A DNA stretch of 64,000 bases from Stieleria maiorica (lineage in GTDB: Bacteria > Planctomycetota > Planctomycetia > Pirellulales > Pirellulaceae): positions 9,057,121 to 9,121,120 of the forward strand of contig NZ_CP036264.1 in assembly GCF_008035925.1 (NCBI RefSeq), given 5' to 3'. The notes under the pieces are model-generated. The model worked only from the letters and a program-made list of their open reading frames with translations, was not told the DNA's origin and did no database searches. This document shows, piece after piece, positions 25,344 to 46,771 of this stretch; the first letter of the stretch is position 1; every line of letters begins with the position of its first letter. The translations under genes were made by a program, and so were the position numbers.

Positions 25344-25838
25344 ATGGCACTCAACGTGACCAGGGAGGTTCGGAAGATGGAGAAATGCTCCGTCCGCGAC
25401 CTTCGCAAACAGTACGCCGAAGTCTTCGGCGAAGCGACCAATGCGTCCAACAAAGATTGGCTGATTAAGCGTATCGCTTGGCGGATGCAATCGAACAAAG
25501 AAGGCGACATTTCCAAGCGGGCTCGGCAGCGAGCGTTGGAGATCGCATGCGATTCTGACGTACGCATGTCGCCTCCGCCGGAGATGCCCAAGCCGAAGCC
25601 TCCACCGGACCGAAAGTTGACGGAGGAATTCAGACCGTCGATCGACAAGCGTCTTCCGCCACCCGGAAACCTCATCACCCGCAAATACAAGGGAAAACTG
25701 CACATCTGCAAAGTTCGCCAAGACGGTTTTGAGTACGACGGCGAATTCTACAAGTCACTGACCGCAGTGGCGAAAGCGATCACCGGCCAGCACTGCAGCG
25801 GCTACGCATTCTTCAACATTCAAAAGGCGGACTCGTGA
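25344..25838 (+). CDS. DUF2924 protein, recombinase partner
   Basis: A 164-residue DUF2924 protein: SVRDLRKQYAEVFGEATNASNKDWLIKRIAWRMQSN at the N terminus is the family signature, with a proline-rich linker in the middle and GKLHICKVRQDGFEYDGEFYKSLTAVAKAITGQHCSGYAFF at the end, the usual C-terminal module. DUF2924 genes almost always precede a large serine recombinase, as here, with the stop overlapping the recombinase GTG. It probably acts as a directionality or DNA-binding cofactor; this is inference. Good ribosome site GAAGGAG. Confidence 0.85.
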   Translation: MALNVTREVRKMEKCSVRDLRKQYAEVFGEATNASNKDWLIKRIAWRMQSNKEGDISKRARQRALEIACDSDVRMSPPPEMPKPKPPPDRKLTEEFRPSIDKRLPPPGNLITRKYKGKLHICKVRQDGFEYDGEFYKSLTAVAKAITGQHCSGYAFFNIQKADS

Positions 25839-27400
25839 AAAAGACCGAAACCAAGAAAACGATCCACTGCGCGATCTACACGCGGAAATCGACTGACGAA
25901 GGACTCGACCAGGAGTTCAACTCGCTCGATGCCCAACGTGCGTCGGCCGAGAATTTCATTGCTAGTCAAGCAAGTGAAGGTTGGGTCGCACTGCCGGCTC
26001 AATACGACGACGGCGGTTTCACCGGCGGGAACATGGACCGGCCGGCGCTCAAGCAGTTGATGGCGGATATCGATAAGGGCAAGATCGACTGTGTGGTCGT
26101 CTACAAAGTCGACCGTCTCAGTCGGTCGTTGCTCGACTTCTCTCGCATGATGGACGAATTCGAGCAAAAGAAGGTGTCGTTCGTTTCGGTCACTCAGCAG
26201 TTCAACACGACCTGCAGCATGGGACGACTGACGCTGAATATCCTTCTCTCCTTTGCCCAGTTCGAACGCGAAATCATCTCGGAGCGAACGAGGGACAAGA
26301 TCGCCGCGGCACGTCGCCGAGGCAAGTGGTCGGGTGGGATGCCAGTGCTTGGCTACACGGTTCCGGAGGGCACGACCAAACTGGTGGTTGATCCATTGGA
26401 GGCCGAGCGTGTGCGAGCCATCTTCGATCTATACCTCGAACGCAAGTCATTGCTGGGAGTCGTCGCAGAACTGGATCGCCGCTGCTGGGTTGCCAAACAG
26501 TGGACAACGCGGAAGGGCACTCAGCGTGGAGGCCGGCCGTTCTGCAAGACGAGTTTGCATCGCCTGCTGACGAACGTGACCTACCTCGGGAAGCTGAGGT
26601 ACAAGGACGAGATCCACGAGGGCGAACACGATGCGATCGTCGACGAGGATGTCTGGAAGAAGGTGCAAGCCTTGATGAACCGCAACGGACGATCCGGCGG
26701 CGGCGAGGTGAAAAACAAGTTCGGCGCATTGCTACGCGGACTGCTTCGCTGCAAACCCTGCGATTGCACCATGATTCCTTCGCATTCGACGAAGCCAAGC
26801 GGCAAACGATATCGCTACTACGTCTGCGCCATGGCACAAAAACGAGGCTGGGCGAATTGTCCAACCAAGTCGGTGCCGGCCGGCGAGATCGAACGCTTCG
26901 TCGTCGACCAGATTCGTTGCATCGGCCGCGATTCGGACCTGGCTCGAAAAGTGATGGAACAAGCCGAAGTTGAATCGCGGACTCAAATTGCCGCGTTGGC
27001 CAATGAAGAACACCTGCTGCTAAAGAATCTCGGTCTCTGGCAAACGCAACTCGGTGAAGTTCTCCGCAAGCTGCCAGCGATGGGCGAGGATTCGGTGATG
27101 CTGGGGATTTTGGCTGATCTACAGGACCGAATCCGCGAAGGCGAAAAGCGACTCACTGCGATTCGGATTGAATCGGATCAACTTGCCCGATCCAAGGTCG
27201 ATCCAGATTCGGCAACCGAGACGTTAGCGCACTTCGATGATCTCTGGGAATCGCTTGTCCCCAGAGAACAAGCCGAATTGATTCAGATGCTGATCCAATC
27301 GATCGAGTACGACGGCGAGGCCGGAAAGATCTCGATCGCGTTTCATCCTTCAGGAATTGGAGTGATTGAACAACGGTTGCTTGCGGGGGCTGCCGAATGA
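25835..27400 (+). CDS. Large serine recombinase (probable integrase)
   Basis: A 521-residue serine recombinase. The resolvase catalytic domain starts CAIYTRKSTDEGLDQEFNSLDAQR (nucleophile Ser in RKS) and continues with VVYKVDRLSRSLLDFSRMM and LLSFAQFERE. A recombinase domain follows (GYTVPEG, RVRAIFDLYL), then a zinc ribbon (LLRCKPCDCTMIPS plus a second Cys pair near YYVCAM and WANCPTK) and a coiled-coil tail. These enzymes integrate and excise phages and islands at att sites. The GTG at 25835 overlaps the DUF2924 stop, and the stop overlaps the next gene's ATG; the three form one operon. It is the likely integrase of the prophage. Confidence 0.92.
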   Translation: MKKTETKKTIHCAIYTRKSTDEGLDQEFNSLDAQRASAENFIASQASEGWVALPAQYDDGGFTGGNMDRPALKQLMADIDKGKIDCVVVYKVDRLSRSLLDFSRMMDEFEQKKVSFVSVTQQFNTTCSMGRLTLNILLSFAQFEREIISERTRDKIAAARRRGKWSGGMPVLGYTVPEGTTKLVVDPLEAERVRAIFDLYLERKSLLGVVAELDRRCWVAKQWTTRKGTQRGGRPFCKTSLHRLLTNVTYLGKLRYKDEIHEGEHDAIVDEDVWKKVQALMNRNGRSGGGEVKNKFGALLRGLLRCKPCDCTMIPSHSTKPSGKRYRYYVCAMAQKRGWANCPTKSVPAGEIERFVVDQIRCIGRDSDLARKVMEQAEVESRTQIAALANEEHLLLKNLGLWQTQLGEVLRKLPAMGEDSVMLGILADLQDRIREGEKRLTAIRIESDQLARSKVDPDSATETLAHFDDLWESLVPREQAELIQMLIQSIEYDGEAGKISIAFHPSGIGVIEQRLLAGAAE

Positions 27401-28263: not shown

Positions 28264-28479
28264 CAACTCCGGCGACGGGGCTGGGTGAATCGGTAGGACG
28301 CCCAAACGGATCGCTCGAACAGCAGGCCACGGACGAGCGGAACGGAGACCAAATTGGAACGGTGGTGGAATCCGCCATCGCCTAGCCCCGTCGCACTTTC
28401 AATCAGCCATTCGGAATGGAACTGACCATTTTCCCCATGGACGCTTTATGACCTGTTCGTGATCCGCTTTGGACAATCG

Positions 28480-29685
28480 ATGCACACGCTCAACTATCAA
28501 CGATTTACCAACTTGCCATTCTTGCTATCGATCAAACCACAACGGCTTCGGGAATTCCTGGAGCCGTTTCGTGATTACCTTTCCGAGAAGCAATTGCATC
28601 CAGACCAGAACGCTCTTCCCCACAAGGATTACGTGCAGAAGCTCTCGGAAGTGTTTGCTTCTCCGGAAGCAGATACGCCATCGCCCCTTCTGGATGCTCT
28701 GCATATCGTCAACGGCTTGACGGGCCGCGCTACGGTCGATTTGTTGTTCGATCAAATCGACGGACTGATCGACACGTTTCAAAACGAAGACGATCCATTC
28801 CCCGGGGACGTGGCCATCGAAGCGTTTCTCCGCGATCGTGATCGAGCGGAACGAATGCTCAGCCACCATTCCGCGCAATCCCGACGAGCGTTCACTTCGT
28901 TTCAGTCGCAGTCGTCATCGCCGCCAAAACTTATGGCCGATCTCGCGATGGGAACTCGTGCCTTGACCCGAGACCTCGACCAATGGTTCTATCGACGCGG
29001 TTGCGGCCGAGGAGCGTCAGCGCAGTGCAACCAGAACGATGGTTCGCTGTATGTCTTAGTGAGTCATGGCACGCCGATGCGTCGGTTGGACGTGCTCGAA
29101 CAGGGATTGCCGGATTCGCTCATTTGTCGGCCGCTGAAGCATGACGTTGCTGTGTTCGACAAATTGATTGGCGAGCTCCGAATCAATGCAGAAACAATTC
29201 CGCAACGCGAGATTTATCGGCGTTTGATCGGCAAGCATTTATTCGGCAACGAAGAGATGTTTCCTCCAGGTGAGAAATTCACTCTGGGTCCGCTTCTGGA
29301 ATACGGCGAGGCCTCACTGTCAGTCGCGATGATCGAAGAGCTGACGAGTGTTGAATGTCATTCGGTCAAGATGTTACTGCCGGGGCACAAACCCGAAGAG
29401 CTGACCTCGCGACGGCAAGATGTATTGGAAGTCTTGGAGCAAAGAATGAAATGGCTCGCTAGGCAAGGCTACGAGGACATTCGTTTGACAGAAGCGAAGT
29501 TCAATTTGTTGTTCGCATCCAGTCGGCGATCTCGAGTCGTGACGATCAAACCTCCCAATGTGGCAATCTACAGTCGCGATGGCGATAGCGAAATCGTTGA
29601 ACGATTCCTTCGCGACCGAGGCTTTATCACCGAGCAAGACTGGCAGCCCTATGCGATCGATGGAGCCGTTCTGGCGGGCAGCTAG
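28480..29685 (+). CDS. Unrecognised protein, first of a pair
   Basis: A 401-residue protein (a GTG at 28459 would add seven residues). No domain is recognised. Visible features: VQKLSEVFASPEADTPSPLLDALHIVNGL near residue 55 and DQIDGLIDTFQNEDDPFPGDVAIEAFLRDRDRAERML; it is soluble and rich in charged helices. The stop overlaps the next gene by tens of bases, so the two are co-expressed. It lies between the integrase operon and the sigma gene and is probably a conserved cargo pair of planctomycete elements. Confidence 0.65.
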   Translation: MHTLNYQRFTNLPFLLSIKPQRLREFLEPFRDYLSEKQLHPDQNALPHKDYVQKLSEVFASPEADTPSPLLDALHIVNGLTGRATVDLLFDQIDGLIDTFQNEDDPFPGDVAIEAFLRDRDRAERMLSHHSAQSRRAFTSFQSQSSSPPKLMADLAMGTRALTRDLDQWFYRRGCGRGASAQCNQNDGSLYVLVSHGTPMRRLDVLEQGLPDSLICRPLKHDVAVFDKLIGELRINAETIPQREIYRRLIGKHLFGNEEMFPPGEKFTLGPLLEYGEASLSVAMIEELTSVECHSVKMLLPGHKPEELTSRRQDVLEVLEQRMKWLARQGYEDIRLTEAKFNLLFASSRRSRVVTIKPPNVAIYSRDGDSEIVERFLRDRGFITEQDWQPYAIDGAVLAGS

Positions 29686-30682
29686 GCGTTGTCGAAACGG
29701 GACGACGCTTGCTCATTGGCGTCAAATGCTCGGCGACGAGTTGCCATTCTTCGAGCATCTCTTGTTGGCGACGGACCAGCTCGGCAGCCATATCCCGAGT
29801 CCAACCTGCGGATGGACTTGGTGGGAGGTCGAGGTCTGCGATCAGCAGTCCATCTACGCAACGAACAAAGCGACGATGGAAACCCAAACGTTGCCTCGAC
29901 GCGACGCCGTCGTCTTTCGTGTCAATATTCCGCTGATCTTTCGCAGTATCTGCCGGGCGGCCGACTGGCAATGGGACTATCACGAGGTTCGAGCGGCCGA
30001 AGGGCTATCTCGGATCGCGATCGATTCACTCTCGCCAAGTGTCCAGCTTTCAATCTTCTATGCGAGCAGTGGCTTGGACGCTTCGCTGGCTTATCTCGCA
30101 GCTGTCAGCAATAAACCATGCGTCATCTTTCGAAGCAGCGGTGGGGATCTCGATGCAAACTCGCAATTGATGCTGCAACGGATGCAATCGATTGAATTCG
30201 CGTTGCCGCTATGCACCGAACTCGACGATCGAGGCATCGTCGCGCTCAACGATTCCGCGCTGCAGCGTTTAACGGACTTCCGCCGACAACACAGTCCGCC
30301 ACCGGAACCCAACCCGCAAAACAGAGGTCTCGACGTTCCGGCTGGAACAACCTGGAACTCAGTCCAGATTCGCTTCATCGATTACGAGACCATTCGCGTT
30401 AGCGTGCCAGGCTCGTCCGGCATCATTCACTACACACAACTTGGAATGGCAAACAGTCGTAACGCCAAACCCGTTAAGCAGTGGCAATTGCTCCGCACCT
30501 ACGCCGACAACCACGGGGTCTTAACTTGGCGAGACAGCGGCGCCGCTCAGAATGTCAAAAAGCAAACGCAGGAGCTCAACAAAAAGCTAATCGCATGGCT
30601 GGGCATTGAGGGGACGCCAATCGAATACGACAGATCCATCAAGGGATACCGCACCGTCTTCGGGATCAATACAGACGGTTAG
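29651..30682 (+). CDS. Unrecognised protein, second of a pair
   Basis: A 343-residue protein starting at ATG 29651 (ATG at 29660 also possible), overlapping the previous gene by 35 bp. No family recognised. Aromatic block GWTWWEVEVCDQQSIY near residue 50; a helical middle; the C-terminal 110 residues (FIDYETIRVSVPGSSGIIHYTQLGM ... WQLLRTYADNHGVLTWRDSG ... NKKLIAWLGIEGTPIEYDR) look like a winged-helix DNA-binding module with a response-regulator-like C-terminal hairpin (IKGYRTVF). Possibly a regulator acting on the palindromic boxes just downstream; this is inference. Confidence 0.6.
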   Translation: MRSMEPFWRAARRCRNGTTLAHWRQMLGDELPFFEHLLLATDQLGSHIPSPTCGWTWWEVEVCDQQSIYATNKATMETQTLPRRDAVVFRVNIPLIFRSICRAADWQWDYHEVRAAEGLSRIAIDSLSPSVQLSIFYASSGLDASLAYLAAVSNKPCVIFRSSGGDLDANSQLMLQRMQSIEFALPLCTELDDRGIVALNDSALQRLTDFRRQHSPPPEPNPQNRGLDVPAGTTWNSVQIRFIDYETIRVSVPGSSGIIHYTQLGMANSRNAKPVKQWQLLRTYADNHGVLTWRDSGAAQNVKKQTQELNKKLIAWLGIEGTPIEYDRSIKGYRTVFGINTDG

Positions 30683-31447: not shown

Positions 31448-32062
31448 GTGACTCAATCCATTTCAAACTTCAATCCGTTCGAAGACACATTCACACGCAG
31501 GCTGGTCCAACGCAAAGCCAATCAATTGATCGGCAAGTATGGCTACACCGAGATCGACCGCGACGATCTTCAGCAGAACATGTACCTGCGAGTGCTTCAG
31601 AGCCTGCGGTCATACGATCCCAATGAAGGTCACCAAAACAAGTTCATCACCGCGGTGGTCGAGCGATACGTGGCGAACATCGTTCGCGATCGCTGTGCCG
31701 AGAAGCGATGTGACGCAGACACCGTGTTACTAAGCACGCCGTTGTCCGAAGCTGACGGCGAGTCGATCCGCGTCACTCACACACTCTCCGGTTCTTCCAA
31801 TGATCGTCACACCGGTCGATCGCGACGCTCGGATACCGAAATCTCGCAGTTGCGATTGGACATCCAGGCGGTCATCGATGAATTGCCGACCGACTGGCAA
31901 CAAATCGTCGAACTACGCAAATCATTTTCGATTACCGAGATCGCGGAACAGATAGGCGTCGCACGAACGACGATTTCTGCGCGTTTCCAGAAGATTCGGG
32001 AGCGTTTCGCAGAGGCTGGTCTGGCCGATTATTTCCAAGCCACTTCGTCGGCTCGAACGTGA
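31448..32062 (+). CDS. Element-encoded sigma-70 family (ECF-like) sigma factor
   Basis: A 204-residue sigma factor from the GTG at 31448 (AAGGAGATATTCC before it). Region 2: IDRDDLQQNMYLRVLQSLRSYDPNEGHQNKFITAVVERYVANIVRDRCAEK. Region 4 with helix-turn-helix: LPTDWQQIVELRKSFSITEIAEQIGVARTTISARFQKIRERF. A sigma gene inside an integrated element suggests it switches on element promoters; candidates are the repeats at 24620, 32045 and 53141 or the 20-bp repeat in front of the 42-46.6 kb genes. It is immediately followed by the replication module. Confidence 0.85.
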   Translation: MTQSISNFNPFEDTFTRRLVQRKANQLIGKYGYTEIDRDDLQQNMYLRVLQSLRSYDPNEGHQNKFITAVVERYVANIVRDRCAEKRCDADTVLLSTPLSEADGESIRVTHTLSGSSNDRHTGRSRRSDTEISQLRLDIQAVIDELPTDWQQIVELRKSFSITEIAEQIGVARTTISARFQKIRERFAEAGLADYFQATSSART

Positions 32063-40197: not shown

Positions 40198-40715
40198 CTA
40201 GATCTGATTCTGCGTCTTCAACCCGGCGCAAATCTTCAGAGACGCATACCCAAGCTACATGAATGTGCTCTTTTTGATCTCGCTGCGAGCAGCGCTGCCG
40301 TACAAACTCGTGAAGTGAACTTAGAGTTTCAGAAAAATCTGCCAACTCTAAACCGCGAGTGTCGAAAATGGTGAGTGGGATGTCCTCTCGAAAAATCTCT
40401 CTCGTGTTCTGAGTGACAGGCCGACCATGACCTACGGTTGCAAAGTTGCCCTGAAAAATTGAATTAATGAGAGTGCTCTTTCCAACACCTGATCGTCCCG
40501 CAATAAGAACATTCGCGTGACCGCGTTCACGCAATGCCTCTTCGGCTGCTTTCTGAATTAGATTGCCAATTTCCATTTTCATATTCTCTAGGTCTGAAAT
40601 TAAGGTCGAAATATAGACCAACTATTTTTTGTCTGCCATCCAGGTACCCAACCAGCCACCCAACCACCGACCGAACCCTTCCGTTTCTCTCCTCGCCTTG
40701 GAAGGGCCAGTGCAT

Positions 40716-42026
40716 ATGCAGGTCGAAATGTGGTCGCTTGATAGAATTAAGCCTTACGAAAAGAACCCCCGAATCAATGACGACGCGGTTGCTCCGGTCG
40801 TCCAGTCCATCAACGAGTTCGGTTTCCGGCAGCCGATCGTTGTCGATCCCGACGGCGTCATTATCGTTGGCCATACCCGTTGGAAAGCCGCCAAGCAACT
40901 GAACCTCGCCGAGGTGCCAGTTCACGTTGCGACAGACCTTGAGCCGGAGGCGGTGAAGGCTTATCGCATCGCCGACAACCGCACCGGCGAGAACGCTGAG
41001 TGGGACTTCGATCTGCTCCCGCTCGAAATCGGCGAACTGCAGCACGTTGGATTCGATTGCGAATTGCTAGGTTTCAACAGCGACGAGCTGGCCAAGCTCC
41101 TCGATCCAGGTGTTGAACCGGGGCTCACCGATCCCGACGACATCCCAGAACCTCCCGACGATCCGGTCACGCAACCCGGCGACCTTTGGATCCTCGGCGA
41201 CCACCGATTGCTGTGCAGCGACTCGACCAGCGTGGAAGACCTCGACCGGCTGTTGAATGGTGCGAAGATTCAACTGTGCAATACAGATCCGCCGTACAAC
41301 GTGAAGGTTGAACCGCGCAGCAAGAACGCGATCGCCGCCGGCAACAGCTCCTTTGAGGCCGGCAAAGGCAAATCGAAAGACGGTCCGAAGAAGATGCGAG
41401 CTAAGGATCGGCCGCTCGCAAACGACTTCGTTTCGGACGAAGAGTTCAACCGGTTGCTCGAAGCCTGGTTCGGCAACATCGCTCGCGTTCTCGAACCCGG
41501 CCGCAGCTTCTACATCTGGGGAGGCTTCTCCAATATCGCAAACTATCCGCCTGTGCTGGCCAAGGCCGGGTTGTATTTCTCGCAGGCGATCATCTGGGAC
41601 AAGATGCATCCCGTGATGACTCGCAAGGACTTCATGGGCGCTCACGAATGGGCGTTCTACGGCTGGAAAGAAGGCGCCGGCCACAAGTTCTTTGGACCGA
41701 ACAATGCGACGGACTTGTGGCACGTCAAGAAGATTCCGCCACAGCAGTTGGAACACCTCACCGGCAAACCGGCCGAACTCGCGGTGATGGCGATGCAGTA
41801 TTCATCGCGGCGCGGCGACAACGTCCTCGATCTCTTTGGCGGCAGCGGTTCGACGTTGATCGGCGCCGAGCAGACAGGCCGCAAAGCGTTTTTGATGGAA
41901 CTCGATCCGCCGTACTGCGACGTGATTGTGGATCGCTATCAGCGGTTCACCGGCAAAGCCGCGGTGCTCGAGCGGACCGGCAAGTCACCGATCCCCGTCG
42001 GTGCTCGCGAGGAGAACATGCGATGA
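40716..42026 (+). CDS. ParB-domain DNA adenine/cytosine-N4 methyltransferase
   Basis: A 436-residue protein. A ParB-type nuclease-like domain leads (PYEKNPRINDDAVAPVVQSINEFGFRQPIVVDPDGVIIVGHTRWKAAKQL). A methyltransferase follows with NTDPPYNV (motif IV, DPPY) and, near the end, DLFGGSGSTLIGAEQTGRKAFLMELDPPYCDVIVDRY (motifs I to III; AdoMet-binding). The order IV before I marks a beta-class enzyme. It probably methylates phage DNA to evade host restriction. Start ATG 40716 after GGAAGGG; a TTG at 40629 is less likely. Divergent from the broken GTPase gene. Confidence 0.88.
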   Translation: MQVEMWSLDRIKPYEKNPRINDDAVAPVVQSINEFGFRQPIVVDPDGVIIVGHTRWKAAKQLNLAEVPVHVATDLEPEAVKAYRIADNRTGENAEWDFDLLPLEIGELQHVGFDCELLGFNSDELAKLLDPGVEPGLTDPDDIPEPPDDPVTQPGDLWILGDHRLLCSDSTSVEDLDRLLNGAKIQLCNTDPPYNVKVEPRSKNAIAAGNSSFEAGKGKSKDGPKKMRAKDRPLANDFVSDEEFNRLLEAWFGNIARVLEPGRSFYIWGGFSNIANYPPVLAKAGLYFSQAIIWDKMHPVMTRKDFMGAHEWAFYGWKEGAGHKFFGPNNATDLWHVKKIPPQQLEHLTGKPAELAVMAMQYSSRRGDNVLDLFGGSGSTLIGAEQTGRKAFLMELDPPYCDVIVDRYQRFTGKAAVLERTGKSPIPVGAREENMR

Positions 42027-42065: not shown

Positions 42066-42096
42066 GTAGAAGTAAATGTGCTCTGCATTTAACTAC
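42066..42096. terminator. Convergent hairpin between methyltransferase and minus-strand array
   Basis: Stem GTAG/CTAC and TAAATG/CATTTA around loop TGCTCTG, where the plus-strand operon meets the minus-strand genes. It overlaps the stop codon of the 42093 gene. Stem strength is moderate. Confidence 0.4.
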
Positions 42097-42353
42097 CGGG
42101 CAAGCCGATCCAATTCCGATTCGTCTTTCAACACCTCGGTTTGCCGACTGGTCGCGAAATACTCAGGCTCAGCGGGGCGAGGTTGAAGCGATCGCAGTTC
42201 GCCGCCTTCAATCAACTCGATGGCTTCGTCCGGATCTAAGTACCCATCGACCAGAATTGGTAGGACGTGTTCCGGGTAGCCATCAAAGTGCAAGTACGTG
42301 GCGAGGATTCCTCGATCGTAAGTCTGCGTGGCAATTATTGCTCGTGTGGACAT
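42093..42353 (-). CDS. Small phage protein (86 residues)
   Basis: Starts MSTRAIIATQTYDRGILATYLHFDGYPEHVLPILVDGYLDPDEAIELIEGGELRSL, a compact fold with the pattern of small phage proteins found with amidoligase genes; function unknown. Ribosome site AGGAAA before the ATG. Last gene of a three-gene unit driven by the promoter-like repeat at 42878. Confidence 0.65.
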   Translation of the reverse strand: MSTRAIIATQTYDRGILATYLHFDGYPEHVLPILVDGYLDPDEAIELIEGGELRSLQPRPAEPEYFATSRQTEVLKDESELDRLAR

Positions 42354-42356
42354 GGT

Positions 42357-42602
42357 TCAGTTTCCTTGGCTTGACGAATTGGATTTGGAACTGCCGCCGG
42401 AATGCCGTTCGACTCGATCCGGCGGAATGGAAAGCATCAGTGACCGGCCGTTGTCCCAGTCGACATCGAGTTGCAACCAATCGTGTTGCGGATAAACGCC
42501 GGCAACCGTTCCTGTCGTGCCGGCTGGGATCGGATCGGGGTCATCGCCCATCTCGATCAGTCGGACGCGGTCGCCCGCCTTGAGGTTGCATTTACGTTTC
42601 AT
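42357..42602 (-). CDS. DUF4314-like small protein
   Basis: An 81-residue protein with KAGDRVRLIEMGDDPDPIPAGTTGTVAGVYPQHDWLQLDVDWDNGRSLML, the DUF4314/SH3-like barrel common in phages. The ATG at 42602 overlaps the upstream gene's TGA (TGATG), so translation is coupled. Function unknown; the fold often binds other proteins. Confidence 0.75.
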   Translation of the reverse strand: MKRKCNLKAGDRVRLIEMGDDPDPIPAGTTGTVAGVYPQHDWLQLDVDWDNGRSLMLSIPPDRVERHSGGSSKSNSSSQGN

Positions 42603-42835
42603 CAATTACGGACTCCATTGGTTTCGTCGAGTAGCGTTGCGACTTCGGATAGCTGAGCGTTGATGAGGTTGACCGCTCGAACGTGATGCCAACGCAGGTC
42701 TTTGGAATCAGGTCGCTGCATGCGATCGAGTTGCAATTCAATGTGTCGCAGCAAGTCGCGAGCGATTTGGTGACCGTTCTCATAAGCCGGGGCCGGCTCG
42801 ATCGGCCGAGGATTGAGTGTTTGAACTTTGTTCAT
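42602..42835 (-). CDS. Small helical protein, first of a three-gene unit
   Basis: A 77-residue protein (MNKVQTLNPRPIEP ... DLLRHIELQLDRMQRPDSKDLRWHHVRAVNLINAQLSEVATLLDE), mainly helical. No family recognised. It starts 43 bp downstream of the conserved 20-bp repeat at 42878-42897. Confidence 0.65.
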   Translation of the reverse strand: MNKVQTLNPRPIEPAPAYENGHQIARDLLRHIELQLDRMQRPDSKDLRWHHVRAVNLINAQLSEVATLLDETNGVRN

Positions 42836-42877
42836 TCGGGGTCTCCGTGTTCGTAGAAAGAAATGGCGTTTGCGTTA

Positions 42878-42897
42878 ACACACATGAGCCATGCGTT
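42878..42897 (-). promoter_or_regulatory. Promoter-like repeat, copy 1
   Basis: Exact ACACACATGAGCCATGCGTT (plus strand). On the transcribed minus strand it follows a CTTGCTG-like block and lies 43 bp before the start at 42835. First of five identical copies. Confidence 0.6.
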
Positions 42898-43031
42898 CGC
42901 CAACACAGCAAGCGAACATTGGAAAACAGGCGGAGAGATTCGCCATGTTTTTCGGCTTCAAGAAATCGCGGCCGTCGTTGCCGCGTGTGGCCTCGTGAAA
43001 TCGCGGGACCAAGTAGCCGACCAACGACAAA

Positions 43032-43059
43032 ACGCCCGACCGTGGCCAACGTCGGGCGT
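43032..43059 (-). terminator. Terminator of the 43099-43827 genes
   Basis: Stem ACGCCCGAC/GTCGGGCGT, followed by TTTTG on the minus strand, about 40 bases after the stop at 43099. Confidence 0.75.
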
Positions 43060-43098
43060 GTGTGGCGAAGTGTTCGCCGGGGATAGAAGGTGTTGAAG

Positions 43099-43329
43099 TT
43101 AGAAAGAGAGGGGGACCAAGACGTGCGAGTTCCGGCCGACCACCGAGAATTCTTCGCCGGCGGTTGTTTTGGCGATGATCGTGTCGCCGCGTCGAACCAG
43201 GTGTTCCACCGTGCCGCGTTCAAAGCGGTCGCCATTGGCGGTCCGCAGTTCGTATCCCATGTCGGGTTCCGGCGTTGCCGTTTCCCCTTCCGCAAGGTCC
43301 TCGATTTGTCGAACGCCTCCGATAAACAT
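43099..43329 (-). CDS. Small phage protein (76 residues)
   Basis: MFIGGVRQIEDLAEGETATPEPDMGYELRTANGDRFERGTVEHLVRRGDTIIAKTTAGEEFSVVGRNSHVLVPLSF-type beta-rich protein; no family recognised. It starts 12 bp after the HARE-HTH gene and probably shares its transcript. Confidence 0.6.
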   Translation of the reverse strand: MFIGGVRQIEDLAEGETATPEPDMGYELRTANGDRFERGTVEHLVRRGDTIIAKTTAGEEFSVVGRNSHVLVPLSF

Positions 43330-43341
43330 CTCGCTGGCCTC

Positions 43342-43827
43342 CTAAGTGCGAACCGTGAACCGGCCGCGTTCCGTCTTCACGAATCGGCTTTCGTCGCCTT
43401 TCGCCAAGTCACGAAGGATCGCCGAGTACAACGTCGCGTGAGGAGTCTTTCCGCCGGGGCTTTCCCAAAGATTCTGGTCGACCATCGCAGCGATCATTTC
43501 CTGCGTGTTCATCGGCTCGCCGGCGGATTCCAAAACCTGCAAGGCGGCTTTCACGCAGGAAAGCTTTTTCTCGCCGACGGTGCTGGTGTCGGACTTCTTC
43601 TTGGCGACTCGCTTCTTTGCTCGCGTGGCGGGCTCCGCAGCCGCTTCTGTCGTCCGGGCCGGTCCTTGCAACCGACCGGCCGTCTTGATGCGGACCTTCT
43701 TATTCGTCGAGAGGTTGGTTGCGTCCCAACCTCCCGATGTGTTCTCTGCGTCGATCCGCACAACGACCTTCTTGTTTGTCACCTTGGCGTAGTACTCGCC
43801 ACCGATCTTTACATCTGCCTTCTTCAT
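43342..43827 (-). CDS. HARE-HTH domain protein
   Basis: A 161-residue protein. The N terminus (MKKADVKIGGEYYAKVTNKKVVVRIDAENTSGGW) is a small beta domain; a basic linker (RAKKRVAKKKSD) follows; the C-terminal 75 residues (LSCVKAALQVLESAGEPMNTQEMIAAMVDQNLWESPGGKTPHATLYSAILRDLAKG) are a HARE-HTH/winged-helix domain linked with DNA modification and restriction proteins. Start ATG 43827. A probable DNA-binding regulator or modification reader of the element. Confidence 0.75.
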   Translation of the reverse strand: MKKADVKIGGEYYAKVTNKKVVVRIDAENTSGGWDATNLSTNKKVRIKTAGRLQGPARTTEAAAEPATRAKKRVAKKKSDTSTVGEKKLSCVKAALQVLESAGEPMNTQEMIAAMVDQNLWESPGGKTPHATLYSAILRDLAKGDESRFVKTERGRFTVRT

Positions 43828-43897
43828 TCGTCCGTCTCCAATGCTTGGGTTCGTGTGGTTGGCTGCCATCGTCAGGCCGCGGGAACCGCCCGCGACG

Positions 43898-43934
43898 ACG
43901 CCGGCCCGATTCAATCGAGGAAAGGGGCCGGCGT
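43898..43934 (-). terminator. Terminator of the 43948 gene
   Basis: Stem ACGCCGGCCC/GGGCCGGCGT directly after the stop of the 43948-44190 gene. Confidence 0.7.
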
Positions 43935-43947
43935 TTCGGCTTTCGGT

Positions 43948-44190
43948 TCAAACCACTACGCCAAGGCTGCTCTTGCGAAGCAGGTCGTACATTTGCAGGA
44001 AAAGAAAGTGTTCGTCGAGCAGCGGTCCGGCGTTGCCGCCTTGGTCGGCGTCGGCTTTCTCCAAAGCGTCGGCCAGCGGTTTCAAGTTGTCGGCAATGCG
44101 GTAGTAGCTCTCGCGAATCTCTTGGTAGGTCGTCGGGTCGAGTTGTTGCATGGCGCTGCGAAGGTCGGCGGTCTTGATTTCTTTGGCCAT
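43948..44190 (-). CDS. Small helical phage protein (80 residues)
   Basis: MAKEIKTADLRSAMQQLDPTTYQEIRESYYRIADNLKPLADALEKADADQ..., all helical; no family recognised. A monocistronic unit: repeat promoter copy 2 is 53 bp upstream and its own terminator lies just downstream. Confidence 0.65.
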   Translation of the reverse strand: MAKEIKTADLRSAMQQLDPTTYQEIRESYYRIADNLKPLADALEKADADQGGNAGPLLDEHFLFLQMYDLLRKSSLGVVV

Positions 44191-44242
44191 GGTTTTGTCT
44201 CCGGTAGAAGGTCGTGGTTCTTGGTTCGCCCTGTCGGCGTTA

Positions 44243-44262
44243 ACACACATGAGCCATGCGTT
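44243..44262 (-). promoter_or_regulatory. Promoter-like repeat, copy 2
   Basis: Exact 20-bp copy, 53 bp before the start at 44190. Flanking CACATCAAGCGAA on the plus strand is shared with the other copies. Confidence 0.6.
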
Positions 44263-44292
44263 TCGCAGCACATCAAGCGAAGTCCGGCAGCA

Positions 44293-44331
44293 ATTCGCAG
44301 TCTTTTGAAAGGTTCTTCAAGGACTGCGAAT
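44293..44331 (-). terminator. Terminator of the 44353 gene
   Basis: Inverted repeat ATTCGCAGTC/GACTGCGAAT just after the stop at 44353; the ATTCGCAG arm is part of the conserved flank of the promoter repeat. Confidence 0.65.
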
Positions 44332-44352
44332 AATGCCGCTACTCAGGCGATG

Positions 44353-44571
44353 TCAGTCTGCCATGTTGCGGCGAAGTTTCGCGGCCAGCCCGTCGATGGC
44401 GTCGTGCAGGTCATCGAGTTCGCCAAAGACACGATCGAACTTTGCGTCGTCGGACGCCGCAGCAAGCGGCAAGTCCTTGACCGCAGCGTGCAACTCTTCA
44501 ATCAACTCGAGCGTTTGCGTGTGCAGGTAAAGAAGGTCTGCGGAAGTTGGGCGGGCAGTTGCGTTGGCCAT
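44353..44571 (-). CDS. Small helical phage protein (72 residues)
   Basis: MANATARPTSADLLYLHTQTLELIEELHAAVKDLPLAAASDD... ends LHDAIDGLAAKLRRNMAD. Helical, acidic; no family recognised. A monocistronic unit with repeat promoter copy 3 at 44 bp upstream and its own terminator. Confidence 0.65.
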   Translation of the reverse strand: MANATARPTSADLLYLHTQTLELIEELHAAVKDLPLAAASDDAKFDRVFGELDDLHDAIDGLAAKLRRNMAD

Positions 44572-44614
44572 GGTGGTGTCTTCGTTGGGGAAGGAAATGA
44601 AACCCGTATCGGTG

Positions 44615-44634
44615 ACACACATGAGCCATGCGTT
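44615..44634 (-). promoter_or_regulatory. Promoter-like repeat, copy 3
   Basis: Exact 20-bp copy, 44 bp before the start at 44571. Confidence 0.6.
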
Positions 44635-44758
44635 TTCACACACAGCAAGCGAAGTTTGGAGAGAATCTGCTGTCTTTTTGCAGCTTTTGGTTGGCCGGCG
44701 ACGTTCGGCGCAAGACGCCGTTCCATGGGCATGCGGCAAACAACCCGCAAACAAGAGA

Positions 44759-44789
44759 ACGCCGCGACAGGTTGCGAACGTCGCGGCGT
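44759..44789 (-). terminator. Terminator of the 44816 gene
   Basis: Stem ACGCCGCGAC/GTCGCGGCGT with an 11-base loop just after the stop at 44816. Confidence 0.75.
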
Positions 44790-44815
44790 GTGGGCGAAAG
44801 AGTTCGCTTTACGAA

Positions 44816-45028
44816 CTAGCTGCCGTTGTCTTCCGGCTCATTGGATTCAAGCAATTCCTCAAGTCGCGCGGCGTAGTGGCGAAGCGTTCCGACGTGATCC
44901 CAACCGATCCGTGTTTCGCAATCCGGAGCCGGTTGGTCTTCAATCATCTGCCGGACGGCTTCCGCCGCTTGCACCGCTTGAGCATGGGCGGCGATATAGG
45001 CTTCTTCAAGGGTCTGCTGTTGATTCAA
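44816..45028 (-). CDS. Small helical phage protein (70 residues)
   Basis: MNQQQTLEEAYIAAHAQAVQAAEAVRQMIEDQ ... LRHYAARLEELLESNEPEDNGS. Helical and acidic. It lacks the promoter repeat, so it may be read from copy 4 through the 45101 gene or from its own promoter. Confidence 0.6.
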   Translation of the reverse strand: MNQQQTLEEAYIAAHAQAVQAAEAVRQMIEDQPAPDCETRIGWDHVGTLRHYAARLEELLESNEPEDNGS

Positions 45029-45061
45029 GGTTTATCCTCATCTCTGGTGAAAGAGCCGGCC

Positions 45062-45083
45062 GGCGGCGCGATCGCGCGCCGCC
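45062..45083 (-). terminator. Hairpin after the 45101 gene
   Basis: GC-rich near-palindrome GGCGGCGCG/CGCGCCGCC, 20-40 bases after the stop at 45101. Confidence 0.5.
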
Positions 45084-45100
45084 AGCGTGTTGATTCGTGT

Positions 45101-45376
45101 TTAGCAATCGCGGCAGGTTTCCCATGCCCGCTTGCTGCCGTAGCAAAGCTGCCCGCCTTCGACGATGTAAACCATCGCGTCTTCGGCGACGTCTTGGTCA
45201 TCCGCGAATTCGTGCGGATCGTCGTGCTCCGCTTCGTTCATTTCCGCGCCGCTCGTTACGCCGGCGATGCGGTTTTCAAAGGGCCAGTTCTGTTGCGTCA
45301 TCAACCGCACTTCGCAGTCTTCGCCGTGCTCGTCGCGATACTCTTCAAGCAAGCCGATCAGTTCGCCGAGGGTCAT
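45101..45376 (-). CDS. Small acidic phage protein (91 residues)
   Basis: Starts MTLGELIGLLEEYRDEHGEDCEVRLMTQQNWPFENRIAGV and continues through an Asp/Glu-rich middle to VYIVEGGQLCYGSKRAWETC. The first 40 residues resemble small phage proteins with an EYR..G.D.EVR motif. Unit with promoter copy 4, 44 bp upstream. Function unknown. Confidence 0.65.
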   Translation of the reverse strand: MTLGELIGLLEEYRDEHGEDCEVRLMTQQNWPFENRIAGVTSGAEMNEAEHDDPHEFADDQDVAEDAMVYIVEGGQLCYGSKRAWETCRDC

Positions 45377-45419
45377 GTTTGTTTCTCCGTTGGGGTGAAT
45401 GAAAAACCGTCTTCCGATG

Positions 45420-45439
45420 ACACACATGAGCCATGCGTT
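45420..45439 (-). promoter_or_regulatory. Promoter-like repeat, copy 4
   Basis: Exact 20-bp copy, 44 bp before the start at 45376, with the AGTAATTCGCAG flank seen also at copy 5. Beyond it, 45505-45535 and 45571-45601 form an imperfect direct repeat (GACRTCGCCCACAAAC). Confidence 0.6.
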
Positions 45440-45614
45440 TCCGAACTCAGCAAGCGCATCCAGCCAGTAATTCGCAGGGTTTTTCCATGTTTCAACGGTT
45501 CGCCGACGTCGCCCACAAACCGCCCCTGTCGCGACAGCGATATTGATGGCCACCTACGTTTGACCTACCCGACATCGCCCACAAACGGCGAGTGTCGCGG
45601 CCACAAAACAAGGA

Positions 45615-45640
45615 AACGCCGCGGGGTAGTTCGCGGCGTT
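45615..45640 (-). terminator. Terminator of the amidoligase gene
   Basis: Stem AACGCCGCG/CGCGGCGTT with an 8-base loop, then TTTCC on the minus strand, 25 bases after the stop. Confidence 0.75.
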
Positions 45641-45664
45641 TGGTGGGCAAGTGTTGGCCGGCAA

Positions 45665-46522
45665 TCAACTTGCCTGGTCGTATTTGCGGGCCAAGTCGAG
45701 AAGCTTCTTTTTGACCGGGCGAAAGTCGCATCCGTTTTCGCCGGTGGTCAGTTCGCCGAATCGTCTGTTGCGAAGCTCGCCCTTGTACCAACCCTTCGTC
45801 CAACCCAGCCGGTAGAAGAGCCGGTTCAATTCCGTTTCACCGTGGCCGGCGTCCGGTCGGTCCCAGCAAGATTTCGTTCCCGGCTTCTTCGCGTAGTCCC
45901 AGCCCGCACATCGTTTTTGGTTCATCGCGAGTTCGGCCAAGCCCAGGATCATTTGGATGTAGCCGATCAATTTGGTTTTGTTAAGCGTTCCGGCGAAGGC
46001 CCGGATCTCAATCCGTTGTCGCCCGCGAGCCAGGTGCGTCAGGTTCAAGAGATGGTAGCGGTCGGCCTCGCAGCGTGTCTTCGCCGCGTCCTTGTTGCCG
46101 TAGGTTTTGATTTGCTTCGCCCATTGGTTTCGTTCCCGGCGTCGCGTTCCGGTCGATGCGTAGATGGCCTTTTCGTGGTTGGCGATCAAGGAAATCAGTC
46201 GGGCCAAGGCCGCCGCGTCGCCGTTCCAAGAAATGGTGATGTGCAGCCCGCAAGATTCGTTGACCCGGGCGCCGCGTTCTTTGATCGCGTCGACCGCGGT
46301 CTCGACGTTTTGCAGACCCTCGCGTCCGCGAAGGACCGGTGAAACAAACTCGCAAGGTTTGCGGCCGGCCGGCGTGCGGATGCTGCCGTCGCGTTCCGCC
46401 TTCCAACCCGCGGGTAGCCAGGAAACCGGAAGGCCGTTGTGGTAGCCGCCAATCGGCGTACGGTCGTGTCCGGGCATGTGGGTTTCGATTTCGATACCGA
46501 AGGCGATGTCGTTGGCGTGCAT
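45665..46522 (-). CDS. Putative amidoligase
   Basis: A 285-residue protein of the phage/defence-associated amidoligase family (COOH-NH2 ligase, glutamine-synthetase-like fold). Features: FGIEIETHMPGHDRTPIGGYH at the N terminus, ERDGSI, CEFVSPVLRG, NESCGLHITISW and RQRIEIRAFAGTLN, which supply the metal and ATP-binding acidic residues. These enzymes form peptide-like bonds and are often found with small cyclotransferase or peptidase genes, possibly modifying peptides or cell-wall cross-links. Start ATG 46522, 40 bp after promoter repeat copy 5; a longer frame through the repeat exists but is not needed. Confidence 0.85.
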   Translation of the reverse strand: MHANDIAFGIEIETHMPGHDRTPIGGYHNGLPVSWLPAGWKAERDGSIRTPAGRKPCEFVSPVLRGREGLQNVETAVDAIKERGARVNESCGLHITISWNGDAAALARLISLIANHEKAIYASTGTRRRERNQWAKQIKTYGNKDAAKTRCEADRYHLLNLTHLARGRQRIEIRAFAGTLNKTKLIGYIQMILGLAELAMNQKRCAGWDYAKKPGTKSCWDRPDAGHGETELNRLFYRLGWTKGWYKGELRNRRFGELTTGENGCDFRPVKKKLLDLARKYDQAS

Positions 46523-46561
46523 GTTTGTGTCTCCGAAAAGCGTGGAATTCGTTTTGCGTTG

Positions 46562-46581
46562 ACACACATGAGCCATGCGTT
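46562..46581 (-). promoter_or_regulatory. Promoter-like repeat, copy 5
   Basis: Exact 20-bp copy, 40 bp before the amidoligase start. Confidence 0.6.
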
Positions 46582-46771
46582 TTGAGACACCTCAAGCGAA
46601 GTTCGAAAGTAATGTTCCAGTAATTCGCAGCTTTCTTTTCTTGCCCACAGGCGGCCAGTTTTGGCCCCACGTCGCCGCCGAAAACATGCGGCCGCGGACC
46701 GCAAACATGCACATGCTCGCGACAGTCGCCGACGTGTTTGCGCAGTCGCAATCCCACCCACGGAGCCCGCC

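Follow-up and report, generated by a model that had tools for sequence, protein, structure and literature searches.

A repeated ~80-bp element in a prophage gene array of Stieleria maiorica with the features of a phage-specific promoter family

The minus strand of a 64,000-nt stretch of the Stieleria maiorica genome (contig NZ_CP036264.1, positions 9,057,121 to 9,121,120; hereafter the window, whose own numbering is used throughout) carries an array of mostly small phage genes, located between a terminase gene and a ParB-methylase gene, in which one element of ~80 bp recurs five times. Comparison with its relatives in other prophages and in viral contigs suggests that this element is probably a phage-specific promoter family, copied before the cassettes of the array. 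Indeed, the same motif stands in a fixed geometry before several genes and is rare elsewhere in the phage and in the host. An earlier sequence-only reading of the window had proposed moron cassettes under one regulon; of that proposal, the layout fits the term moron, and the presence of promoter-like repeats before the cassettes is well supported by comparative anatomy.

Five exact copies of the 20-mer ACACACATGAGCCATGCGTT were found in the window, against a shuffle expectation of 0.00, which bears out the count given by the sequence-only reading. On the minus strand the 20-mer reads AACGCATGGCTCATGTGTGT, and its first base is taken here as position 0. Beyond these five, no copy with three or fewer mismatches was detected in the window or in the 9.9-Mb genome, and the 13-base core was found only at the same five places in the whole genome. 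All five elements lie on the minus strand: copy 1 at 46557–46637 (20-mer at 46562–46581, TTG box at 46593–46595, position 21 at 46560), preceding a putative amidoligase gene; copy 2 at 45415–45495 (20-mer at 45420–45439), preceding the gene at 45101–45376; copy 3 at 44610–44690 (20-mer at 44615–44634), preceding the gene at 44353–44571; copy 4 at 44238–44318 (20-mer at 44243–44262), preceding the gene at 43948–44190; and copy 5 at 42873–42953 (20-mer at 42878–42897), preceding the gene at 42602–42835. The gaps between the 20-mers and the respective minus-strand ATG codons are 39 nt (ATG at 46522), 43 nt (45376), 43 nt (44571), 52 nt (44190) and 42 nt (42835), so that the 40–53 bp previously indicated was right within a base. 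A shared CTTGCTG-like block had also been described upstream of the repeats on the coding strand. CTTG is present in all five copies with identical spacing, whereas CTTGCTG itself occurs in only three (the others being CTTGATG and CTTGAGG, once each), and the feature is better described as a −35-like CTTG box plus phased A-tracts.

The search for the 20-mer in related prophages, which the same reading had proposed as a check, recovered the element in Pirellulales prophages and viral contigs, where the 20-mer appears as the core of the ~80-bp element. Most loci were fetched by exact patterns; the constancy of the 20-mer in L006–L074 and that of CTTG plus the 13-mer in L075–L157 are therefore partly by construction. 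Less biased sets are the 62 distinct copies retrieved via the 20-mer alone, the degenerate neighbours within the same loci (137 rows), and three regions fetched through a sigma factor gene (L176, L238, and L240; see below). Near-identical copies (>88% or >93%) were removed before counting, core conservation was assessed in an alignment limited to copies whose core and box together show no more than two mismatches, and the loci seen individually form part of 96 viral stretches and of the genome match places. In the 62 copies, the tetramer at −15 is CTTG in 52, CTGG in 9, and ATTG in 1, and the CTTG box is never shifted by a base (0 of 62); over all loci then collected, 257 of 274 distinct cores have CTTG at −15, again partly by construction. 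The box and the core are separated by 15 nt of fixed length and mostly variable sequence. Within the 20-mer, the first four bases vary among related copies and CATGGCTCATGTGT is near-constant, partly by construction, the near-invariant core being CATGGCTCATGTG(T) and the pattern used for strict searches CTTG-N15-CATGGCTCATGTG.

Upstream of the box, the fraction of A peaks at −21, −32, −43, and −52, and more weakly at −70, −80, and −90, with a periodicity of 10–10.5 bp (power 0.61–0.62, against a shuffle maximum of 0.006). Downstream of the core, 80% of 292 distinct copies have a pyrimidine-purine step at 20/21, 86% have another at 23/24, and the composition is A/C-rich from position 20 onward. 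Of 146 copies, 138 are followed by an ATG with a Shine-Dalgarno (SD)-like site that opens an open reading frame (ORF) of at least 40 codons, the random and antisense controls giving 66 of 459 and 15 of 151, respectively. This ATG lies at a median distance of 65 nt from position 0 (quartiles 63–67.5). Ten distinct variants carry one extra base before CATGTG. In seven of these the pyrimidine-purine step lies at 21/22, none has it at 20/21, and three lack it at both positions; it looks as though the −10 region moved together with the start, as a block. Other natural variants of the core are CATGGCTGATGTG and CATGGCTCCTGTG. In addition, ten stretches also holding the main element (L006, L009, L022, L033, L048, L063, L073, L090, L110, and L149) contain an element of a second type, CTTG-N15-GCTGGCTGACTGTTG(A/G) or near, with the same spacing, possibly a second promoter class.

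The anatomy suggests how such a promoter would be built. The helically phased A-tracts would act as an UP-element-like or curved upstream part, followed by the −35-like CTTG box, the 15-nt fixed-length stretch, and, where TATAAT would be expected, CATGGCTCATGTG(T) as an unusual −10 region. Transcription, which we infer to arise from the element, would start close to position 21 or 24, ~3–7 nt beyond the core, both the exact −10 register and the start being read from the sequence pattern; an A/C-rich leader of ~40–45 nt with an SD site would then precede the ATG. Two registers can be considered. In one, TTG (−14 to −12) opens the −35 hexamer and a 17-nt spacer leads to CTCATG as −10, with a start near 21. 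In the other, the −10 would be CATGTG (11–16), with a start nearer 23–24. A consensus scan for sigma-70 housekeeping promoters (TATAAT-like −10 at 16–18 nt from a TTGACA-like −35) gave no minus-strand match, in agreement with the earlier claim that no copy resembles a usual −10/−35 pair; yet, with TTGNNN read as the −35, TTG does lie 17 nt upstream of CTCATG. Sigma-54 promoters are defined by GG-N10-GC, and this class was rejected on spacing, the N10 after the GG of TGGC being followed mostly by T and a pyrimidine (positions 19 and 20). A search for a T7-like RNA polymerase (PF00940) found no match in the genome, and its control search was likewise without any match.

An alternative is that the repeats act in RNA, as a conserved 5′ leader (a structured element, a protein-binding site or a leader ORF) that controls translation of the cassettes. 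We regard this as unlikely. The near-constant distance to the ATG is the point in its favor that also counts against a promoter, as it would fit an RNA-level role too; a hammerhead ribozyme lies in the same array, and folding of single copies shows that local hairpins are possible (one of the five at z −2.6, the other four between −1.0 and +0.5). However, when 153 non-redundant copies are aligned without gaps, for no two columns from −20 to 20 does pairing exceed expectation by more than 0.10, and the isolated pairs above expectation further out (e.g., −52/−48 and 53/64) form no helix. The RNA hairpin suggested by the single folds was ruled out by this lack of covariation and pairing excess around the core, and the element has no match in Rfam. 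A leader peptide MAHVC (ATG GCT CAT GTG TGT) was also rejected: many copies run into an immediate TAA, and the natural one-base insertions shift the frame. Likewise, comparison by eye gave no match to a hammerhead-like core inside the element, the true hammerhead being a separate feature. Taken together, the fixed spacing, the phased A-tracts, which are a feature of DNA, and the lack of covariation favor a signal in DNA, and on these sequence grounds the element reads as a phage-specific promoter and not as a structured RNA.

The strict pattern occurs in 43 of 396 Pirellulales genomes (41 of the 253 good ones), with none in the reversed control, and in the 96 stretches of viral contigs, where some single matches (e.g., L126) may be due to chance for a 17-base pattern. 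A sample of 199 genomes of the phylum gave two positives, both from the window's own family, and 0 of the 196 genomes outside the order Pirellulales. In the S. maiorica genome, relaxed matches outside the array are at background level (7, versus 12 in the reversed control), and blastn of one element copy against the phage collection returned no record at E 0.1. Arrays of related phages contain up to eleven copies. Literature listings, together with the accessible part of PMC11958385, yielded no described promoter of a planctomycete phage and nothing on the core sequence.

The phage carries a candidate reader of its own, which the sequence-only reading had pointed out: the plus-strand gene at 31448–32062, encoding a 204-aa protein with a GTG start preceded by an SD site and assigned by Pfam and fold to the extracytoplasmic function (ECF)-like sigma factors. 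Its match to Sigma70_r4_2 scores 27 bits (above the cut-off of 25.7) and that to region 2 scores 20.6 bits (below the cut-off of 24); among 22 members of the family, at E 0.01, region 2 is detected in 18 and region 4_2 in 4. The AlphaFold model consists of two confident helical parts and a low-confidence linker (mean pLDDT 80, pTM 0.45). By name, the PDB fold matches listed are all sigma factors or complexes that contain one, and those of ECF type rank best. Only 3 matches reach E 0.001, and TM-scores are low (0.24–0.41 for the listed full two-domain matches of ECF size), which would be explained by free placing of the two domains. By its modeled fold, the protein is an ECF-like two-domain sigma factor. 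In a tblastn search at E 0.001 of the phage collection, which was not checked for the presence of phiEco32, it matched only two Wolbachia phage records (~27% identity). Two overlapping long ORFs lie upstream of the sigma gene on the plus strand, at 28459–29685 (no Pfam match) and 29558–30682 (low-identity relatives in 27 of 37 regions).

Sigma homologs (E 1e-5) are present in 37 of 43 element-positive genomes versus 6 of 37 element-negative ones (Fisher p 2e-10), the latter being hand-picked from 76 of the same family with complete genomes favored; a profile search adds the sigma factor in two further genomes, G097 and G078. The viral records L190–L209, fetched for carrying the sigma gene, were excluded from this evidence. 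The gene is usually located ~5–13 kb from the nearest element and on the opposite strand (in L182 both are on one strand). Following the sigma gene brought to light variant elements in three regions missed by the strict pattern (L176, L238, and L240). G337, counted as element-negative, carries a one-base-insertion variant with the sigma gene 13 kb away, and from the sigma loci of G261 and G026 variants were reached on the opposite strand, ~4–9 kb away. In the proposed mechanism, RNA polymerase with this ECF-like sigma factor would read the copies directly and so switch on the cassettes together; judged from these comparisons, we consider the chances of such direct reading to be about even.

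Several observations weigh against the sigma factor as reader, and against the promoter as drawn here. First, 21 aligned sigma relatives (an alignment that omitted a 96% twin in G196) are only 18–44% identical to the sigma factor of the window while the promoter core stays, and such divergence would be surprising if an invariant promoter had this one protein as its only reader. Second, no confident sigma gene was found in seven element-bearing regions (L170, L173, L179, L181, L215, L217, and L218), of which L179 has a weak match at the expected place (E 0.16) and L181, L215, and L217 have matches at decoy level; a 6.8-kb contig (L174) and a stretch from the wrong side (L178, replaced by L216) were not counted. 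Third, of eight sigma-bearing stretches searched in reverse, two hold a variant element, five hold none (L233, L234, L235, and the short contigs L237 and L239, which leave <8 kb on the array side), and L236 offers only 98 bases. No different repeated promoter was found near the element-free sigma loci (no 9-mer before several genes at a like distance, eight loci), nor a promoter-like repeat family in L233–L235; the repeats in L233 resemble sulfatase genes by eye. Fourth, among 49 viral records the sigma gene is found in 31 and AAA_24 above cut-off in 33; the two genes go together, and two records with AAA_24 and no sigma gene begin <2 kb from AAA_24. The sigma gene thus behaves as a core gene of the lineage, and lineage also explains its association with the element. 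Finally, the −10 region has no good likeness to any known consensus. The sigma factor named in the sequence-only reading therefore stands as a candidate, by its ECF-like fold, its association, and the variant elements it led to; on the other side, it is a lineage core gene like AAA_24 and diverges far more than the promoter core.

It is possible, if somewhat less probable, that the element is a promoter with another reader, either a second phage regulator (activator or repressor) or a host sigma factor, the phage sigma factor serving other promoters. We know of no sigma consensus as constant as this core, and the neighboring sigma factors are strongly divergent; the core also holds a CATG-GCT-CATG dyad, and the ORF cluster of the ParB-methylase is present near the array in 36 of 37 regions, versus 32 of 37 for the sigma cluster (single-linkage; L174, L175, L177, and L180 were left out). 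On the other hand, the absence of host copies outside the array makes a host regulon unlikely, the outer positions of the dyad vary, and the methylase gene, of a kind common in phages, is a neighbor of the array by position. A more tentative idea is that the core, here its near-invariant 14 bp, is read by something besides the fast-diverging sigma factor alone: an unrecognised phage DNA-binding regulator might work with it on phased curved DNA, or the divergent proteins of the sigma family might keep one strict promoter so that cassettes stay exchangeable, as a kind of regulatory currency.

From one sister array to another, units have been gained or lost and the order of the cassettes differs, while the element stays. 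A stretch can contain as many as eleven units, the amidoligase often being the first, and the genes headed by elements belong to 22 families (547 elements with a downstream ORF, redundant set). This variability would suit an integron-like recombination site for gain and loss of cassettes with a secondary promoter role, an explanation that we consider very improbable. Integron attC sites are folded sites at gene 3′ ends that act with an integrase, whereas the element lies at a fixed distance before the ATG, not at gene ends; an attC array was rejected on this placement and on the lack of a conserved fold around the core. Furthermore, homologous recombination between the repeats would explain the shuffling, and the only recombinase among 20 Pfam-scanned window proteins is a serine recombinase at 25835–27400, 15 kb away. 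We retain the phage-specific promoter family as the preferred description of the repeats.

The array in the window comprises five units on the minus strand. Unit 1 is the putative amidoligase gene (45665–46522, 285 aa; PF12224, E 6.7e-21), followed by a terminator-like hairpin with a T tract at 45614–45641. Unit 2 (45101–45376) encodes a 91-aa protein with no Pfam match and a weak match to PHROG 6992, and a GC-rich hairpin with a poor T tract follows at 45059–45086. Between this and another terminator-like hairpin (44759–44789) lies a 70-aa ORF with a TTG start and no element of its own (44816–45028; weak match to PHROG 14596). Unit 3 (44353–44571) encodes a 72-aa protein to which the ORF list and Pfam scan assign no function. 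The same applies to the 80-aa product of the first gene of unit 4 (43948–44190) and to the 76-aa product of the third (43099–43329); the second gene encodes a HARE-HTH domain protein (43342–43827; PF05066, E 4.1e-14), and the unit ends with a terminator-like hairpin at 43032–43059. Unit 5 consists of a gene for a 77-aa protein with no function assigned from the ORF list and Pfam scan (42602–42835), a DUF4314 gene (42357–42602; PF14192, E 1.2e-12), and a member of the PHROG 1987 family, also without assigned function (42093–42353; E 2.1e-12). The ParB-methylase, a ParB domain fused to a DNA methylase, is encoded on the plus strand at 40629–42026, and a GpA-type terminase is found in 45 of 49 element-bearing viral records of at least 25 kb.

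These hairpins come from a stem-plus-T scan with loops of up to 14 nt, which gave four intergenic sites (shuffle mean 0.15, maximum 1) and a weaker hairpin inside an ORF (42524–42498). A second scan of both strands with loops of up to 8 nt found 10 sites versus 8.6 expected, no excess over chance. Where the earlier reading ascribed GC-rich terminators to most units, terminator-like hairpins are found in three of the five (units 1, 2, and 4). The hammerhead ribozyme mentioned above, of type II, is located between the first two genes of unit 4, at 43857–43941 on the minus strand (Rfam 45.8 bits, cut-off 37), ~30 nt upstream of the HARE-HTH gene, which is about where the first genes of the units carry the promoter element. 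It exceeds the Rfam cut-off in 13 of 16 sister loci searched (L031, L047, L070, L071, L059, L066, and others), some copies being near-identical.

The arrangement recalls several known systems. Morons of lambdoid phages have their own promoter and terminator and are transcribed against the neighboring phage genes; the layout is alike, whereas they use individual host-type promoters and here one promoter family serves the whole array. T4-type phages reportedly possess mobile regulatory cassettes (promoter early stem-loops, said to have been described by Arbiol et al. in 2010) that combine a host-type early promoter with a stem-loop. They share with our element the promoter-bearing intergenic repeats that go with cassette shuffling, and differ in that the promoter here is not host-type and has no conserved stem. 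The SAS/ESAS repeats of mycobacteriophages, as far as the available parts of the reports on Cluster K (PMC3203893, PMC12699233) and Cluster EF (PMC7302621) describe them, also stand before many phage genes of different families and are almost absent from the host. In these partial accounts, SAS is a 13-bp sequence at the ribosome-binding site and ESAS consists of 17-bp inverted repeats with a variable spacer, whereas our element lies ~40 nt further upstream, with fixed spacing and without such inverted repeats.

The closest parallel may be the promoters of phage sigma factors. The available part of PMC4331800 gives TAATGTATA as the promoter consensus of the phiEco32 sigma factor and TGATGT as the core for Salmonella phage 7-11. 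According to that excerpt, a short non-TATAAT motif is repeated before genes of one phage, the sigma factor is phage-encoded, and structural and other genes lie on opposite strands, all of which resembles the situation described here. Those motifs, as excerpted, are short; our element has a longer constant core, phased A-tracts, and a −35-like box whose spacing does not vary. It also precedes most of the cassettes in its array, and the phages that carry it have an integrase-type recombinase. By analogy, the element would work like the promoters of phage sigma factors, differing in its two-box build, A-tracts, core, and exchangeable cassettes. The likeness between TCATGTGTG and TAATGTATA is weak and serves as a lead only: 6 of 9 letters are shared, and 2350 of 20000 shuffled sequences reach that score.

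The element is found in phages from across one bacterial order, the Pirellulales, and makes an easily searched marker for these prophages. The candidate sigma-promoter pair is defined and testable in vitro and, if the reading is true, the element would be a ready-made expression part for planctomycetes. These phages also offer a natural experiment, in which the candidate sigma factor falls to ~20% identity with the promoter core preserved, perhaps because the cassettes must work in any sister phage.

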